A DNA stretch of 64,000 nt from Gigantopelta aegis (lineage: Eukaryota > Mollusca > Gastropoda > Neomphalida > Peltospiridae), in NCBI RefSeq assembly GCF_016097555.1, contig NC_054704.1:25980236-26044235 (forward strand). Direction: 5' to 3'. Shown piece after piece: positions 3,693-62,300 of this stretch (the first letter of the stretch is position 1; every line of letters begins with the position of its first letter). Below the pieces are notes generated by a model, which ran no database searches, had not been told where the DNA came from, and worked only from the letters and a program-made list of their open reading frames with translations. A program made the position numbers and the translations under genes.

Positions 3693-4085
3693 GTAAAGTT
3701 TGTTTTATTTAACGACGCCACTAGAGCATATTGATTGTTTATCTTATCATTGGCTATTGGACGTCAAACATATGGTAATTCTGACACTGTTTTTTAGAGG
3801 AAACCAGCTGTCGCTACATAGGCTACTCTTTTACAACAGGCAGCAAGGGATCTTTTATTTACGCTTCCCACAGGCAGGATAGCACAAACCATGGCCTTTG
3901 TTGAACAAGTTATGGATCACTGGTCGGTGCAAGTGGTTTACACCTACCCATTGAGCCTTGCAGAGCACTCACTCAGGATTTGGAGTCAGTATCTGGATTA
4001 AAAATCCCATGCCTCGACTGGGATCCGAACCCAGTACCTGCCAGCCTGTAGACCGATGGCCTAACCACGCCGCCACCGAGGCCGG
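3693..4085 (-). repeat. SINE, family C (head ccggcctcggtggcgtcg)
   Basis: Full-length on the minus strand. The tRNA-like head starts at about 4085, with a B-box-like 'ggttcggatcccag' near 4020. The body contains the family-C block 'ccctgagtgagtgctc' (here diverged). The tail is of family B type (ctagtggcgtcgtt), so this copy is chimeric relative to other C copies. Confidence 0.8.
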
Positions 4086-39530: not shown

Positions 39531-40060
39531 GATGCAGTTGGTAATTCATTGGTGATTGCTGGGTTTGCATCCCAGTACCGGCTCAGTTCTAGAATATATT
39601 TTAATGACTCAGTGGGACCGACGGTATAAGGCCAGTATACCGATTTCTTTCATTAACCAAGGGGCAGGAATTAGCTCATTCGGTTGAGCACTCGCTTGGG
39701 GTGCTTGCGTCGCAGGATCGAGCCACCTCAGTGAATCTGTTCAACTGGTTGGGTTTTTTTTCGTTCGAGCCAACTGGTCAAAGGCCGTGTTATGTGCTTT
39801 CCTGTCTGGGGAAAGTGCATATAAAAGATCCCTTTCTGCATTAGGAAAAATGTAGCGGGTTTCCTCTGTTGACTACGAGTCAGAATTACCAAATGTTTGA
39901 CATCCAATAGCCGATGATTAATCAGTCAATGTGCTCTAGTGGTGTTGTTAAACAAAACAAACTTCAACTTCTTTCATTAACCATTAACTCGCTGTTCTGG
40001 ATAGACAGCCTGAATCAGATATAAACACGTAAATAAAATCATACAAGGATATTGAAGATA
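39531..40060 (+). repeat. SINE, family D, split by a family-B SINE
   Basis: tRNA-like head 'gatgcagttggtaattcatt' with B box 'gggtttgcatccc', body to 39659, then the family-B SINE, then continuation from 39984 ('ttaactcgctgttctggata' 'gacagcc'). The two halves join to the arrangement seen, inverted, at 48197-48352. Confidence 0.7.
39660..39968 (+). repeat. SINE, family B, full length, nested in family D
   Basis: Head 'ggaattagctcattcggttg' (A box), B box near 39716, core and tail 'ggtgttgttaaacaaaac'. Target-site duplication 'ttctttcattaacca' at 39645-39659 and 39969-39983. Confidence 0.92.
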
Positions 40061-47600: not shown

Positions 47601-50600
47601 TATCACATTAAATAGTAATTGTTACTCACGGTCAATAATCAAAAGTTTGAAAACAAAATGTTCCCTGGAAGTCTTGTCTCGTACAAATGAGTTTATTAAC
47701 ATTATGAATATAATTGATATTTAGCCCATTGAGCTATTTCTCATTCCAGTGACTGGTACATCAAAGGCTGTGGTATGTGTTATCCTGTCTATGGTGCATA
47801 TAAAAGATACCTTGCTACTGATTGAAAAATGTAGCAGGTTTCTTCTCTAAGACTACATATGTATATGTCAGAATTACCAAATGTTTGACATCCACTAATC
47901 GATGATTAATAAATCAATGTGATCTAGTGGTGTTGTTAAACAAAACAAATTTTGTTTTAACTAATTGATATTTAAGTATTCTTGAGATTGTAGAGGACTA
48001 TGGTAGTATTCATTGTATTTTATGCTGTGACAGATTAATTTTGTTTAATTAAAGTGATCCCTATTATATCATTATTGGAATGTTTTAAAACATCATTTAC
48101 ACCTTTAACATAATAATGAAAACTGACACTCAAAAATTACAATGCGAGTTAAAAATAATGTGTTATTCATATGAATGTCATTTCATTTCAAGTTATTTTG
48201 TGCTTATATCGAATTAAGGTTCAAGCACGCTGTCCTGGGCACACACCTCCGCTATCTGGGCTGTCTGTCCAAGACAGTGGGTTAGTTGTTAGTTGGTTAG
48301 TGAGAGACAAGAGGGTGTAGTGGCCTTACACCTATCCACAGGCCTGTACCCTGATCAAAATCCTAGGGGTGGGGGGGTGGGGGGCACTACTTTTTATAAA
48401 CTAATGAAACACTATACAAATTAAACCCTGAGATGTATATGCTATTTTCTGGAGTAAAAAATAGAAAAAAGAAGAGATTCTCAGACCCCCCCCCCCCCCC
48501 CCCCGAGGGTACAGCCCTGATCCATTGAGCCCTTATATTATGAGTGTATGTTTGTGAACAACAAGGGAGAAAACTCTTAAATCTTTTGTAACCAATAAGC
48601 CATCACAAATTATTTCACCTCACACAAAAATCTGGGGCTTGTAACTCAAAGCAGTCGTAAATATTTTGGTGTTATGTGTTCGTCACGACAGTCGTAGGGA
48701 AAGTTTAGTAGTATAACCCGAAACACACATAGCTTTGGCGTAAAGCATACGTTAAGCTAGAAAAACACAACTGTAACTCGACAGTCTAAAACACTTACGA
48801 CAAGGGGATTCCCCTGCTGGCATCAATGACACCCACTGAAAATGTCTGTAGCATTTTAGTGACAACAAATGGGTGGGTGTAGTTCAGTGATAGAGTGCTC
48901 ACTTGATGTTCAATGGGTGGACGCAGAATCAATCGCCATCGGTGTACTTGTCTTTTTTCCTTCTCAATTTGTGTCCCACGACTGATATTTCGAAAACTTT
49001 TGAAAGGCATAGCCTGTGTGGCAGCAGCGACCCAGTGCCCCCTCTCCTACCTCCCCCTCCCATCGCATCCATAAGTGTCGAAATAACCATGTTAGATATC
49101 ACATAGTAATTTATCAAATATGCTGAAGTGTTGTTAAGTAAATTACAAATCATCTTTTAACATCGCACACACTTCAGTAATGATTGGGCTATATAATGAT
49201 ATAGGGTTTTGTTTAAAACGTTTAACCCCAGAAACAAGTTTGGTAGTGTTAGGGTTAGAGGGTCCTGATATCACTACCTTACAGTCATGTTATAGATTAT
49301 AGGTTCGCCTTTTTAATCACACAAACTAATGTTACGTCCATGCTACAACTGGTCTGGGGTACAACTAAATTTTGTCGTAAATCTGAAAATTTACACCTGT
49401 CCTAGATAAGGACTAAAATTGCGAGTGGTTCGTGTTACACACCTAACCTTTTAGTATTGCTCTCTGACTACCGTAAGTTTAGTAGGCCCTTTCGACTGCT
49501 TCGAGTTACAAGCCCCTGGGGCCTACTTCACAAAGCTCTCTTACCATTTTTTCATTGCAATGCAAGATCGCTAAGTGTACTTTATAATCTTAGAAAACAC
49601 TAAAATTATTATTAAACATACAAATTAAATTTAAAAAAAAGAAGTTTGAACATATTTAATATGAAAGAAAAGTTTTGATGGTACAAGGTATAGCATATAA
49701 TCCGATGCAATTTGTAGATAAAACTGATTTTAAAACATTCTTTCACTCTTAACTCACAAATACATATATTTTACATTATCAAGAGAGTAATAAAAATATA
49801 GATATACCGGTACTGAAAGATACAATATACTGTATGATAATTTGTTAATTAATGACATTGTACATTTGTTGTTCTAAATGAAAAAACACTACATTTCTAA
49901 AGGTAAATATACTTTTATTGAAGTTTTCGCCATAAAATCATGCTCTTTTTAATATGTTTACTAACATATGAAGTAGTGAATATATATTATCAATGGAAGT
50001 GTGCTGAACTACTACACACTGTTTCAAAGTGTTTCCCTAAAGGGATTTCAATTCAAATATGGACCTTTTGCTTTAAAACTTAAATAGTAAAATATAAGAA
50101 AAGTATAAACACAAAAAAGATATTAACCTAGCTTAAAATTTCTGTTTGTACAATTTAACAATTGTTTACATTTTATTCTAGTAAAATCAGTTATTCTTGT
50201 GCAAGGCAATAAGAAATTTTTTAAAACCTTGCTGTGATTTAACATTCAAACTTGACCAATACTGGTATATCAAGACCAAGATACAAAATAGTATTTTATC
50301 CATTTAATAACAATACCTCTTAAATATTTTGACTTGCACAATAAAATGTAATAATATTTTCAGATTTTGAGAAAAAGAAATATTTTCAACCCTTAAATTT
50401 CTCTATACATTTCTACTCCAGTCCCATTTTAGAATTTACAAAATTCAGAACCATGAAACTTGGCTGGTTTATTCAGGGTCTAACCAGAGTACTCTGACTA
50501 AGAGAGCTAGACGGACATTTGGATGGTTATACGCTCTCATTACCTATTTAAGAGGCTGTTGTATTGTTATTAAATTGATAAAATACTATTTTTTATCTTG

Positions 50601-51155
50601 GCCTTGATATAACACCGTGAAACCTATCCAAACTGGACCCTGAATAGCCCAAGTACTCTGACTGTAAGAGAGCTAGATGGACATTTGGACAGATATACGC
50701 TCTCATTACATGTCCAAATGTCCGTCTAGCTCTCTTACAGTCAGAGTACTTGGGCTATTCAGGGTCCAGTTTGGATAGGTTTCACTGTGTTATATTTTTT
50801 TAAACTTGGGGTATCAACAAAATTAAACACTAATATCACAATACCTTAGACTCTACGATATCGTAGAATGGTCATTAATGTTTTTCTGTATCTGATTAAC
50901 CCCCCCCCCCCCAAAAAAAAGAAGACAGACAAAAAACAACACACTTCAAATTATACTCTATACATGTACTCACTTTGAGTAGTAAAATAATTTTGCCTTG
51001 AAATACTCTTGCTCGCTTGTCTTTTCAGAGCTACATTTTATTAATCGTTGCAGTCCTGTCTTAAATCTTTCATCGTTTTTAAAGTCATATTTTAAAAACT
51101 GTACAAATTTGTTTTCTTGAAGCTGAATATCATCTTTCTCTGGACAAAAATTCAT
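44081..51155 (-). CDS. PEX39: PEX39/C6orf226-like protein with C-terminal KPWE motif (three exons)
   Basis: Three minus-strand exons (50974-51155, 47189-47250, 44081-44679) join in frame across consensus GT/AG sites to give 280 codons from the ATG at 51155. Residues about 14-85 form a helical block ('FVQFLKYDFKNDERF', then 'FQEFMDWEKRKQNL'). Residues 239-280 are 'FSELMEIIQSGKPVPGI' followed by a linker and the terminal KKPWE. Human C6orf226 (PEX39) has the same ending layout (LLQLVQQG..LPGI...KPWE). The family is known to bind PEX7 and help import of PTS2 proteins into peroxisomes; that role here is inference. Between the two blocks lies a Ser/Thr/Gln-rich linker with peptide repeats. It is longer than the human protein (about 100 residues). 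Transcribed divergently from the helicase exon region. Gene structure is firmer than the family name. Confidence 0.7.
45452..45697 (+). repeat. SINE, family A, in PEX39-like intron 2
   Basis: 'catttctcactccagccagt' to tail 'gtgtcattaaataaaacatt'. Head truncated; antisense to the host gene. Confidence 0.85.
45728..46014. mobile_element. MITE with about 58-bp TIRs
   Basis: The left arm 45728-45786 ('attatcctgttcattattta' ... 'acgtttatttcctat') is the inverse of 45954-46014 ('ataggaaataaacgtaacat' ... 'tgaacaggataat'). About 285 bp total, intronic, with no coding capacity. Nearly identical arms suggest it is young. Confidence 0.8.
46015..46935. other. Intronic DNA without recognised feature
   Basis: AT-rich part of PEX39-like intron 2. 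Confidence 0.35.
46938..47030 (+). repeat. Old SINE core fragment
   Basis: 'ctagtacatcaaaggtcatg' and 'actatcctgtttgtggggaa', then 'gcatataaacggagaataaa'. Confidence 0.5.
47189..47250 (-). CDS. PEX39: PEX39-like exon 2
   Basis: 62 bp. Acceptor 'ttattttcag' precedes 'atattttgtaccaatcac'; the donor is 'ttgg|gtatg'. Encodes 'YFVPITFQEFMDWEKRKQNL'. Phase matches both neighbours. Too short to stand out as an open frame. Confidence 0.7.
47251..47718. other. Intronic DNA without recognised feature
   Basis: T-rich low complexity near 47460-47540; otherwise nothing seen. Confidence 0.35.
47721..47953 (+). repeat. SINE, family B, in PEX39-like intron 1
   Basis: 'tagcccattgagctatttct' to 'gttgttaaacaaaacaaatt'. 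Head truncated. Confidence 0.8.
48197..48352 (-). repeat. SINE, family D, minus strand
   Basis: 'tgtgcttatatcgaattaag', 'gcacgctgtcctgggcacac', 'tgggctgtctgtccaagaca'. Inverse of the family-D body and tail; head truncated. Confidence 0.65.
48353..48510. repeat. G run and C run pair
   Basis: G-rich (48365-48384) and C-run (48486-48504) tracts about 100 bp apart, complementary to each other, flanking 'actactttttataaactaat'. A similar C-ended block is in the tandem unit at 16920-17056. Confidence 0.6.
48865..48970 (+). repeat. tRNA-like SINE head, diverged
   Basis: 'gggtgtagttcagtgataga' (A box) and 'gaatcaatcgccatcggtgt' (decayed B box region). Confidence 0.4.
48971..50487. other. Intronic DNA without recognised feature
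   Basis: AT-rich part of PEX39-like intron 1. No additional exon with matching phase was found by eye. Confidence 0.35.
50488..50552. repeat. Terminal fragment related to the 52-kb foldback element
   Basis: 'agtactctgactaagagagc' then 'tagacggacatttggatggt' and 'tatacgctctcattac'. Matches the end of the element at 52052-53614. Confidence 0.7.
50608..50794. mobile_element. Near-perfect palindrome, miniature relative of the 52-kb foldback element
   Basis: Left arm 50610-50692 and right arm 50711-50791 are inverse copies of about 81 bp around a 19-bp loop. The inner part (about 50644-50757) begins 'tagcccaagtactctgactg' and ends with its inverse, the same terminus as the large element. The palindrome extends beyond that terminus into 'gtccagtttggataggtttc'. 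Confidence 0.85.
50974..51155 (-). CDS. PEX39: PEX39-like exon 1
   Basis: ATG at 51155-51153; 60 codons plus two bases. The donor on the minus strand is 'aaa|gtgagtacatg'. The start is chosen because it is the first ATG of the conserved helical block. Confidence 0.7.
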
Positions 51156-52042: not shown

Positions 52043-52462
52043 GCCGCTAAGTAGCCCGAGTACTTTGACTGTAAGAGAGCTAGACGGACATTTGGACATA
52101 AATACGCTCTCATTACAGTCAGAGACCAACCTATGTATATTTTTGGCAATTCCTGACTATCAAACGGTAGGCAAAGATTCCCGCTCTAATACCACAACAA
52201 TCCTATGTTTGACGTCAAATACCTTTACATTGATCATTTTCGAGTTAACTGATACAAAAAAATCCACATATTAATCACTAATACACATACTACAAAAAGA
52301 AACCCGACAGCACCAACATTCAGCTATGCTTCGTGACACTCCGTCACAACAATTACAAAGCTCGGCGATCTATTTCGAGATGTAGATCACGTGATCGCCA
52401 CTGGGTGATTCCGCCTTGTGCAGCAGTTACAGGGGCCGTCTCATACCAAGCGACGTTGCAAC

Positions 52463-52636
52463 ATGGAAGAGTTGGCTAATGCCGTTTTGGATGAATTTGG
52501 ATTTAATTACGTCATTAAACCAAAACAATTACACATTATTGATTCCATTTTGAATTTGAAGGATACATTTGGGGTGTTATCGACAGGATACGGCAAAAGT
52601 ATGTGCTACGTACTGCCTCCTCTTATGAAAGATAAA
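52463..52636 (+). CDS. Orphan first exon of a RecQ-like SF2 helicase (partial)
   Basis: 58 codons from the ATG at 52463, ending at the donor 'gataaa|gtaagt' in phase 0. 'VIKPKQLHIIDSIL' fits a Q-motif/motif 0 with Gln, and 'GVLSTGYGKSMCYVLPPL' is the Walker A (motif I) as in RecQ (usual PTGGGKSLCYQLPAL). Motifs Ia-VI, including DEAH, are not found in the 3.6 kb downstream before another gene begins, so the gene is incomplete here. An in-frame ATG at 52418 exists, but the second ATG precedes the more protein-like sequence. The exon straddles the edge of the left arm and the loop of the foldback element. Confidence 0.7.
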
Positions 52637-52916
52637 GTAAGTAGTAATTTAATTTGATTATTTTATGTTTTATGAATTAGTCATTAGTACAGTAGTAGAG
52701 TGTGTGTGTGCGGTTTTTTTTCCAACAATTACGTAACGCTCTTGAGGGGATGGGGTATCATAAGATGTATTCCGAGGCGTTAAGGGGACGGATGGCAATG
52801 CTTGTTACTGCAAAATCAAAATTGAATCGGTGCATAGCTCATTCGATCTTTAAAACTTATCTTGCAAAATAATTATAGTTGTTTTGCTATTCAGAACAAA
52901 CTAAAAAATATTGAAA

Positions 52917-53075
52917 TTTGTTTTGTTCAACGACACCACTAGAGCACATTGATTTATTAATCACTAGCTATTGGATGTCAAACATTTGGTAACTCTGACA
53001 TGAGTATTGGAGATGAAACCCGCTACATTGGCAATGGATCTTTTATTATGTACTTTCCCGCAGGCTGGACAAATT
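52917..53075 (-). repeat. SINE, family B, in the foldback loop
   Basis: Tail 'ttgttcaacgacaccactag' at the low end; core 'gatcttttattatgtacttt' at the high end. Head absent. It inserted after the element formed or into its helicase intron. Confidence 0.8.
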
Positions 53076-53626
53076 CCTGTTCTACGCAATCGTCCACTTT
53101 TATCCTCGAAACATTCTTTACAGAATGCACATTCCATCGCAGAAACACAAAACGAAACTAATCCATGTTGTAATTAAATCCAAATTCATCCCAAACGGCA
53201 TTAGCCAACTCTTCCATGTTGTAACGTCGCTTGGTATGAGACGGCCCCTGTAACTGCTGCACAAGGTGGAATCGCCCAGTGGCGATCACATGATCTACGT
53301 CTCGAAATAGATTGCCGAGCGACGGAGTGTCACGAAGCGTAGCTGAATGTGGGTGCTGTCGGGTTTCTTTCTGTAGTATGTGTATTAGTGATTAATATGT
53401 GGATTTTTTTGTATCAGTTAACTCGAAAATGATCGATGTAAAGGTATTTGACGTCAAACATAGGATTGTTGTGGTATTAGAGCGGGAATCTTTGCCTACC
53501 GTTTGATAGTCAGGAATTGCCAAAAATATACATAGGTTGGTCTCTGACTGTAATGAGAGCGTATTTATGTCCAAATGTCCGTCTAGCTCTCTTACAGTCA
53601 GAGTACTCAGGCTAGCCGCTAAGTAG

Positions 53627-53831
53627 CTAAATTTACCGCACATGCGTCAAAAACTGTAGCATATATGCATCAGCAGTAAATATTGTTAACTATGTAACTT
53701 GTTTCGGTGAGTGAAACGTTTATTGGTATAACTTACAGAAAAAACTTTCCAACAAAAAACCTTTTAGTGTTTTGTCAAAACATGTGTTGTTTAACAAAAC
53801 ATGTACTTATAATCATTTATAAAAATTACTT
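53627..53831. other. Spacer between two foldback elements
   Basis: About 200 bp of AT-rich DNA with no recognised feature. Confidence 0.4.
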
Positions 53832-54541
53832 AAAATATTCAATCTAATTAAAATTAGCTCCACTATTACATGTGGATCTAACACCAGCCAGTTGGAGCTC
53901 ATGTTCACCAATCAAAACCTTACTTGCAGAATCCTGCCAGTGATTTAAAAATAATTTGAAAACATTCCGAATTATGCTGAGGGTATACGATATGTTTCAT
54001 GTGAATTACGAATGCCTTATTTAGACCAGTAGAACTAATTTTAATCAGATTGCTAACAACACTGCGTAGTCCTCAATGTCCAGGTAACATTTCGTCTGTA
54101 AATAATAATTTAAATATTGACCAATCACACTTCGTCTTATATAACGTTATTTGGGAGCATACAAATTCTAAAAATATTGGGCGAGTCTATTTTAGTGGCC
54201 GCAGTACAGCGAACCATACCAATACGTTAGGGGTGGGTTATCAGTCTTCAATTTTACATTAAAATTTATTTATTTATAAAAAAAAAAAAACTAAATCAGT
54301 CTTCAGTTTTACATTACAAATTATTTATTTTATAAAATAAAACATGTTTTAAGGCATTTGTAATTCACACAAAACATGTTGTATACCCTCAGGATAATTC
54401 GGAATGTTTTCAAATTATTTTTAAATCACTGGCAGGATTCTGCAAGTAAGGTTTTGATTGGTGGACATGAGCTCCAACTGGCTGGTGTTAGATCCACATG
54501 TAATAGTGGAGCTAATTTTAATTAGATTGTAAAATATTTTC
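53832..54541. mobile_element. Second foldback element, ~185-bp arms
   Basis: The left arm 53832-54018 ('caatctaattaaaattagct' ... 'gaattacgaatgcctta') is the inverse of 54352-54541 ('aaggcatttgtaattcacac' ... 'aattttaattagattgtaaa'). The loop holds a short direct duplication of 'tcagtcttca.ttttacatta' (54241 and 54297). Different sequence from the 52-kb element. No target duplication was identified. Confidence 0.8.
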
Positions 54542-59300: not shown

Positions 59301-62300
59301 ATTTTCTTTCTGAGGGAGGACCCCACCATACTCCTGTTGACTGTGGTTACATTCAATTCCATAGAGCCATACCCAAAAATTTCTTTCTGGCAGAAACACT
59401 GGTGGTAGTGCTCCATGTTCATTGTTTGATGATGGTGCATCAGAATCAGACGACCTGTCCATACAAAACCTCTTTTTCTAGGCAAGTATTCGTTTCTGAT
59501 GAGTATCAGAAAAGCTAATGTCATGTTGTGTGCAGTGTTTTTTCTGTGTTCTTTGCGCCATGGGAGTCCTTTTGCAGATAGTTCCTGGTTCTGCTGCCTT
59601 AGGGTGTACTTCACTAGTTTCAAGAATGCCTGGTTTATCAGCTAGTGTAACAGACAAACCAGAATAGTTAAGCAAACTGAAGCTGGTATCCTTTAATGAA
59701 GAAACTATGTTTAGCAGCTTATTGGTTTGGAATACACCGAGTTCAAGTGAAGCTTATTCAAAGGATATAGGGTTTACATTTCCATCGAGGATGTGTACTG
59801 AATATCAAATCCAGAAGTAGTGAACACTATACCATGTCCACCTGTTGAGTATGCAGGATTCTCTACAGGTTATATTGAGTGAACAGTAACCCCTGCAGCT
59901 TCTGCTGTGTACTCTCTGGGTTCTGTTGTGTGTTCAGTGCACACTCCTGGTTTTGTTGTGTATTTGGTGATCTCTCCGGGTTCTGTTGTGTGTCTAGTGA
60001 TCTCTGCAAGTTATAATGTGTGTTCAGTGATCTCTCCAGATTCTGTTGTGTGTCCAGTGATCTCTCCAGGTTCTATTGTGTGTTCAGTGATCTCTTCAGG
60101 TTCTGTTGTGTGTCCAGTAATCTGTCCAGGTTCTGTTGTGTGTTCAGTGATCTTTCCAGGTTCTGTTGTGTGTTCAGTGATCTCTCCAGGTTCTATTGTG
60201 TTCATGTGTATTCAGTGATATCTCCAGACTATGTTATGTGCAGTGTTCTCTCCGTGTTTTATTGAGTGTTAAGTGATCAATCCTCCGGTGTCTGTTGTGT
60301 GTGCTAAATTATTTCCTGCATCTATTGTGACTGATATGCCATGTTCAAGTTCTCTTGTGTATGCTATATCATGATCATGGTATGCTGTATGTGTGTTCTG
60401 TCATGTTCTTCTTCAGGTTCTGTTGTGTGTACTATGTCACATTCGGGTTCTGTTGTGTGTGCCACATCATGTTCAGGTTTTGTTGTGAGTTCTCTATTAT
60501 GTTCAGGTTCTGTCGCAAGTGACTTGATAAAGGCTGTGGTATGTGCTGCATTAGAAAAAATGTAGTGGGTTTCCTCTGAGGACTATGAGTCATATTTACC
60601 AAATGTTTGACATCCAATAGCCGATGATTAATTAATCAATGTGCTCTAGTGGTGTTGTTAAACAAAGCAAACAAATAAACTGTCGCAAGTGCTATGCTAC
60701 GTTCATTTTCTATGGTGATTATTTTCTCATGTTCAGCTTTTTGCTATGTTATGTTCAGGTCTTGTTGTCATTGATGTGCCAAGTTCTGTTGTGTATGTTA
60801 TATATCATGTTCAAGTCCTGTTTTGTGTGCTACATGTATGTCATGTTCAGCTTATGTTGTGTGTGCTATGTCATGTTCAGCTTCTGTTGTGCGTGCTATG
60901 TTGTGCTAATGTTTTGATGTGTGTGTTGTGTCATGTCCACGTTCAACATTCTGTTGCTTAGTTTAGCTTAGTAACTGGTTTAACGTGTCCATAGTCCATA
61001 TACCACTAGGGATTTCAAACACGTCTATCCTGAGTGCGGACTCCGATAGGATTGGGGGTCTGACTTGGGACAGGGATATTCTGTTGCAAATATTTGTTAA
61101 CTGTAACGTTAATCAAAGTTCATAGATCTTGCTATCGTTTATGTTGAGGCCACATTCATACAAATTACATGTTGGAAACTTTGCTTCAATTAAAAACATT
61201 TCAAAATAGATATTTGTTTTTCAAAAAAATTCACCAAAACATGTTTATTATTATAAATATGGTGCACATAAAATAGCAAACCATACAAACATTAATGTTA
61301 CTGCAATTCCTATTTATATATACAGACACCATTCTTGTCTATTGCCAAATGGTTCGTTGCATGCAGCTAGTACCAAATGTTTTTCTTAAATAGACTGGGC
61401 TCTAACAACGACAAAAGTCATATTATTTTGAGGATTCAAGCACATACAAATATTGACATAATGTGTGCTCTATTGTACTTCGCATTTGTAATTTCTATCA
61501 CAGACCGATAACAAAGAATACATATGTGTCGTATTTGGCATATACGACCTATGTCAGACATAATTATATAAAGAACTGTATTTAAAAGGGTGTATCTACC
61601 ACACACGACCAGTCGTGTGCACATAATGGACAGCAAGCAAATCGGAGGAAAGTCGTATGTGTCAGTTACGTCTATTTTCGTGCAAATTGGTATCTGTGAT
61701 TCATTTACGACCGTTTAAATCCTTCTGTTTAAGCAATGCAATTAGGGACACAGCTACGATTTTTTGTGACAATAATATGTAATCGGGGATGGGGATTCCG
61801 AATATGCCAAAAAGACGTTTTATGTCGTATCTGCCACTTATGACCGTTTAGCTCTCACGCAACGATTTGGGGTTTTCCCATTAATACATGTTATATATAG
61901 TTTATAGCCATCAAATGCTTCTAAATTAATGGTTAGCATTAAACAAAACTTACACAATTCAGTCTTACATTGTGGCATTCCTTTTACCAATTTGTTTTTC
62001 ATTGCAGAGGTTTGATTCACCCACTGATAATGCGATACCGAAGTGCTTATGTACCACTTGGGTAATTTCTTATGTTTTTAAATCATATATTTTATTATAA
62101 AATCATATTTGTAACAGAGATTTATAAGAAAAAGGCACTGCTAATGTGTATGGATGTGCAGTATTATTGGTATACAGATATATTATGATTAAAAGGTTAA
62201 ATGATATATATTAAAGTATACCTTACTTGTATCAATATACTTTATAATTTGTGTATTTCAAGTTCATTGTCATTTGGAAACTACAATCTTTTAGGTTCGA

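Follow-up and report, generated by a model that had tools for sequence, protein, structure and literature searches.

Long terminal inverted repeats (TIRs) and 9-bp target site duplications (TSDs) are typical of Mutator-like elements (MULEs), and MuDR has two convergent genes that start at its TIRs. Kolobok elements duplicate a 4-bp TTAA target. The AcademH lineage is said to go back to Kojima in 2020. As far as excerpts of the published sources go, AcademH carries a helicase gene and has TSDs of 9 or 10 bp, those of AcademX being 3-4 bp, a difference that seems tied to the encoded helicase or nuclease (PMC10045372); AcademH is low-copy in fungi (PMC10799480). Available portions of other sources mention a RecQ helicase in Academ and MuDR-like elements with 9-bp flanking TSDs (PMC3627910), as well as KolobokH with RecQ, from fungi only, and one Kolobok of a rhodophyte whose RecQ lies on the complementary strand (PMC9587614); no mention of Academ occurs in the portion of PMC12730594 examined. 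Here we analyze a 1563-bp foldback element of the gastropod Gigantopelta aegis, located at 52052-53614 of a 64,000-nucleotide stretch of contig NC_054704.1 (the whole of which we call the window). It is very probably a cut-and-paste DNA transposon, most likely of AcademH type, in the form of a non-autonomous copy with an internal deletion.

The element is real and mobile, and is mostly explained: it belongs to a non-autonomous family that has many copies and is of a kind already known, and the helicase exon it carries is, as sequence comparison indicates, the transposon's own and not a captured one. Its features, in window positions, are as follows.

52043-52051, no strand: left TSD, GCCGCTAAG, 9/9 identical to 53615-53623.
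52052-52510, plus strand: left TIR, beginning TAGCCCGAGTAC, its inner end within helicase exon 1 (arm alignment and arm search of the genome).
52463-52636, plus strand: RecQ-like helicase exon 1, 58 codons with Walker A STGYGKS (Pfam DEAD, 1.2e-5; PDB RecQ, 1.1e-6).
52637-52911, plus strand: 5' portion of the presumed helicase intron 1 (locus L046 on C15 continues from element positions 725-1020 into helicase exons).
About 52912-53071, minus strand: truncated piece of a dispersed repeat within the presumed intron 1 (stretch seen in locus L011 and in the longer C15 copy).
53069-53071, no strand: deletion junction with the 3-bp microhomology ACA (side-by-side comparison with L011 for the left parent sequence and with L040 and C8 for the right).
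53072-53137, minus strand: initial 22 codons (MECAFCKECFEDKSGRLRRTGI) of exon 1 of a convergent gene, presumed transposase (longer homologous exon in L040 and C8, MECACCKERFEDKSGRLRRTGIC...).
53170-53614, minus strand: right TIR, with terminal letters ...GTACTCAGGCTA, containing the inverted helicase start (arm alignment).
53615-53623, no strand: right TSD, GCCGCTAAG, 9/9 identical to 52043-52051.

The first-pass annotation, made from the sequence alone, had described inverted arms of about 450 bp, a flanking 9-bp direct repeat and a RecQ-like first exon whose initial 48 coding bases belong to the left arm, with an inverted copy of them in the right, and each part of this description holds. 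Aligned without gaps, the arms give blocks of 294 nt (98%) and 156 nt (94%); the gapped alignment has an identity of 94% across 459 columns, or 97.1% when the 14 gap columns are ignored; arms this long and this alike are far beyond chance. The uninterrupted (empty-site) sequence expected at the locus is ggccgctaagtagctaaatt. Exon 1 runs from an ATG at 52463 through 58 codons to a GTAAGT donor at 52637, its DEAD match (25.5 bits) falling just below the 26-bit cut-off and its PDB match being to solved RecQ helicase structures. The start codon falls inside the left arm and 16 codons are arm-borne; in their inverted copy in the right arm, also of 16 codons, the frame reads MEELANAVWDEFGFNYNMD-stop. 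The outer TIR contains an imperfect hairpin of its own at 52061-52125 (GACTGTAAGAGAGC...GCTCTCATTACAGTC, read by eye), which probably accounts for the extra end matches in our motif scan.

Single-copy arms, which the annotation had named as the sign of a local duplication, are not what the genome holds: the arms match at sites dispersed over many chromosomes, and the copies fall into several size classes. The left arm and the interior of the element served as queries against the genome that contains the window (5216 contigs, 1.149 Gb). The best 40 of 3028 first-look candidates for the left arm were scored, and all 40 match, the window copy included; for the interior, the best 40 of 2639 likewise give 40/40 matches, the number of candidates being inflated by the dispersed repeat that this query contains. 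The two lists overlap at five places, so that at least 75 distinct copies were scored, and the unscored candidates of both searches are no estimate of copy number. TSDs were counted among 49 loci, minus L001 and L002 (duplicates of L009 and L012) and the entry for the window locus; the count takes in the 30 distinct elements with both TAG...CTA ends by a motif rule, and leaves out L003, L007, L010, L013, L014, L025, L038 and the partial stretches L040-L049, in which an end was not found or was not TAG/CTA. An exact 9-bp TSD flanks 27 of the 30 and an exact 10-bp TSD two more (L017 and L031), with none at the remaining one (L020), and the duplicated sequences vary between copies. In L013, the left letters are altered and the flanks match at 3/9 positions.

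The same 30 elements measure 937-949 bp (four), 1563 bp (the window copy), 1976 bp and 2014 bp (one each), 2181-2228 bp (20), 2338-2339 bp (two) and 2591 bp (one), and helicase exon 1 is present, at least partly, in all seven of these size classes. Twelve copies of the 2.2-kb class have a mean identity of 99.2% (66 pairs, 98.7-99.5%), a uniformity that may be overstated, these copies being among the best matches to the window element. L015 is inserted in the TIR of another copy: TCTGACTGT is present a single time in the family TIR and on either side of L015, and because the target is the family TIR itself, the unfilled site is known, as a natural empty site. A coding role of exon 1 in the deletion derivatives is unlikely judging from its reading frame, since among the 20 copies of the 2.2-kb class only L035 keeps a single frame; of the other 19, 18 shift frame between codons 37 and 38, and L032 is broken as well.

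The origin of the exon is seen in longer relatives on C8, C6 and C15. The C8 relative (L039 and L041) has helicase exons on its plus strand (Pfam Helicase_C, 8.2e-16), and for one C8 exon the best PDB matches are RecQ4 and BLM. Its minus strand carries a gene that has a Cys-rich start about 19 bp inward of the right TIR and encodes DUF6589 in two exons (1.1e-10 and 2.1e-9). A PHD-like finger (1.6e-4, narrowly missing the cut-off) immediately precedes the second of these DUF6589 stretches, at L041:1780-2994 (minus). The right TIR of the C8 relative shows 98-99% identity with the 2.2-kb copy L018, and that of the C6 relative 99.3-99.75%. The C15 relative (L046) runs from element positions 725-1020 into an L011-type interior and then into further helicase exons, with SPLTSL, DEAHC and TATAT read by eye and a Helicase_C exon (1.2e-14) preceded by a gap; this continuity indicates that the left side of the window element is the left side of a helicase-encoding transposon. 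Searching the genome with the DUF6589 exon gave five candidates and six matches: C8 itself, C6 (100%), two pieces on C15 (93% and 95%) that adjoin the helicase-bearing relative, a C14 fragment (98%) and another place on C6 (74%, weak). Because the relatives carry further helicase exons together with a convergent DUF6589/PHD-like gene starting beside the right arm, the exon appears to be the transposon's own. The annotation had offered two origins, a host-gene piece captured by a Mutator-like element and an internally deleted copy of a helicase-encoding transposon; the second gains strong support from C8, C6 and C15, which carry the additional helicase exons and the second gene, C8 and C6 ending in the family right TIR. 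The relatives have more of the helicase, but none has both TIRs and complete genes. L043, which extends the L040 copy, contains no additional recognized transposon exon, and a degenerate RecQ motif pattern occurs at four places in the genome, all lying outside the C8, C6:61 Mb and C15 relatives. At the point where the C15 relative loses its left end, it is bordered by open frames that resemble a non-LTR (long terminal repeat) retrotransposon by eye (L046:1-2900).

Overlooked in the annotation were the 22-codon start of the second gene, on the minus strand with its ATG at 53137, and the repeat piece at about 52912-53071. The two meet at the deletion junction, which joins helicase intron 1, inside the dispersed repeat, to codon ~23 of the convergent gene. 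L010, on C5, spans the same junction (649/649 bases of the internal query matched at 98%) and is therefore a derivative copied after the junction arose; its right arm is incomplete. As no complete copy was found, the parent is pieced together from overlapping relatives. It would have had TIRs of about 420-460 bp beginning TAGCCCGAGTAC and two convergent genes: a RecQ-like superfamily 2 (SF2) helicase with its start codon, and presumably its promoter, in the left TIR, and a presumed transposase with a Cys-rich N-terminal segment, a PHD-like finger and DUF6589, read from a start codon that lies inward of the right TIR by about 19 bp in C8 and 33 bp in the window copy. A deletion in the window copy would have fused helicase intron 1 to the second gene at the 3-bp microhomology and left only the two gene starts. 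Abortive repair after excision may have produced it, as it fits gene starts that are kept and a middle that is lost at microhomology. Such copies would presumably be mobilized in trans by proteins of longer copies that cut at TAG...CTA, and inserted into staggered targets of 9 bp, sometimes 10 bp.

Assignment to AcademH is based on several shared properties. Like AcademH, which the excerpts place in animals and fungi, the family is a DNA transposon with its own helicase and TSDs of 9 or 10 bp, one or the other length in 29 of 30 elements; the SF2 RecQ-like helicase is recognized in exon 1 (DEAD and PDB RecQ) and in the Helicase_C match on C8. The candidate transposase, encoded by the convergent gene with its two DUF6589 exons and PHD-like finger, was compared to the Pfam level only, and we presume that DUF6589 is linked to Academ. 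As for the nuclease that AcademX has in place of the helicase, no such domain is seen in eight open-frame pieces of the C8 relative, which are a subset of the frames of the long copies. The window copy differs from AcademH in being without nearly all coding sequence, and the family has at least 75 distinct copies scored here, whereas AcademH is low-copy in fungi in the excerpt of PMC10799480.

Several observations weigh against this reading. DUF6589 is a family of 'unknown function' in Pfam, and a keyword search of the literature found no mention of it; a Pfam scan of the longer Cys-rich N-terminal exon of the convergent gene gave no match. The C15 motif II piece matches Pfam DEAD at only 0.012, below the cut-off, the C15 pieces with motifs Ia and III have no Pfam match, and the C8 counterpart of the motif II piece, which reads DEAY, has no DEAD match. 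Among the matches found, none combines both TIRs with two complete genes, and intact copies may have been missed: C8 and C6 have no left end, and in C15 unrelated sequence breaks in at position 725 and the last helicase exon contains a gap. Finally, the right TIRs of C8 and C6 are only ~93% identical to the arms of the window copy (the left arm, in the C8 comparison), so that these relatives are cousins and not its direct parents.

The same uncertainty about DUF6589, whose Academ identity is our assumption, leaves room for a helicase-encoding transposon of another superfamily, be it a RecQ-bearing Kolobok lineage or a DUF6589 superfamily that has yet to be described. Such an origin is unlikely. 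Kolobok targets are 4-bp TTAA, in contrast to the 9-10 bp of varied sequence duplicated by the window family. Against our reading, KolobokH is a DNA transposon with RecQ, and the rhodophyte Kolobok has it on the complementary strand, as here; however, the available part of the same source reports KolobokH from fungi only (PMC9587614), and a helicase together with 9/10-bp TSDs is the published AcademH combination in the excerpt of PMC10045372.

Less probable still is a Pack-MULE, a Mutator-like element that captured the exon of a host RecQ-type helicase. Long TIRs, 9-bp TSDs and deletion derivatives are shared with Mutator elements, MuDR-like 9-bp TSDs being mentioned in the excerpt of PMC3627910, but 10-bp TSDs occur here too. 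Exon 1 starts inside the TIR, is found at least partly in all seven size classes and is followed in C15 by the element's own helicase exons, not by a host-gene fragment. The family has a RecQ-like helicase and a DUF6589/PHD-like protein where a Mutator-type transposase would be expected: no Mutator-type domain is found among the Pfam matches (E up to 1) of eight open-frame pieces of the C8 relative (0/8), and the window copy itself encodes no transposase core. An immobile local inverted duplication of a single-copy helicase gene, which would place the gene start within the arms as observed, is exceedingly improbable given copies dispersed on many chromosomes, a TSD of its own in 29/30 elements and the nested insertion of L015.

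The apparently captured helicase exon turns out to be a remnant of the transposon's own helicase, which settles a mobile-element puzzle. The family, with its exact ends, 9/10-bp TSDs and three longer relatives, offers a multi-copy resource for studying what a DNA transposon uses a RecQ-like helicase for, and whether that enzyme is tied to TSD length, as the excerpt of PMC10045372 suggests. With both genes starting at the TIRs, the compact arrangement is also a testable regulatory design. The annotation had suggested that transcription could start from both ends. Each ~450-bp TIR might act as a promoter joined to the helicase start codon, one driving the helicase and the near-identical other driving the convergent gene 19-33 bp inside, in which case the derivatives would be paired-end promoters; we regard this as unlikely. 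If it were true, transcripts of the helicase exon would be sent out from both of their ends at many sites of the genome, and the derivatives could donate a Walker A exon to host genes or feed silencing of the parent.

Within the presumed intron 1, a small plus-strand open reading frame (ORF) at 52699-52869 is kept among copies and has no Pfam match. A minus-strand 'zinc-ribbon' ORF at 52967-53137 was considered as one protein and, once copies were compared, rejected as a chimera of the 22 codons of the convergent gene with dispersed repeat (PACGKV...); its database matches are weak and none reaches the cut-off. The repeat piece is, we presume, similar to a short interspersed nuclear element (SINE). 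Elsewhere in the window, the same stretch of L011 gives 21 further match rows (68-88%), and a related dispersed repeat is seen at about 20 window places (e.g. 39701-39967, 47766-47952 and 60559-60671), which we assume to resemble a mollusc tRNA-type SINE. A literature search with the letters of the repeat found no match; the sole tRNA-like match by ARAGORN in the window (4010-4082) adjoins one of its copies.

Three adjacent 2.2-kb copies lie at C4:88721622-88728323 (L034, L047, L048, L050 and L051), with the same 9 bp, GGTATTATA, between and around them. Two of them form a tandem pair with 99.96% identity; the remaining copy has the inverse orientation and shares 99.0-99.1% with the pair, near the level of dispersed copies (99.2% mean). 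A tandem duplication combined with an independent insertion that reused the TSD of the first copy would explain the arrangement. The window itself contains a small palindrome (50611-50791) whose center, 50645-50757, consists of two family TIR ends back to back with the flanks inverted too, and an additional diverged TIR piece at 50481-50543. A second foldback neighbors the element at 53831-54538, with arms of 180 nt (53840-54019 and 54350-54529, 96%) and the 9-bp direct repeat TAAAATATT; its ends are unlike those of the helicase-exon family.
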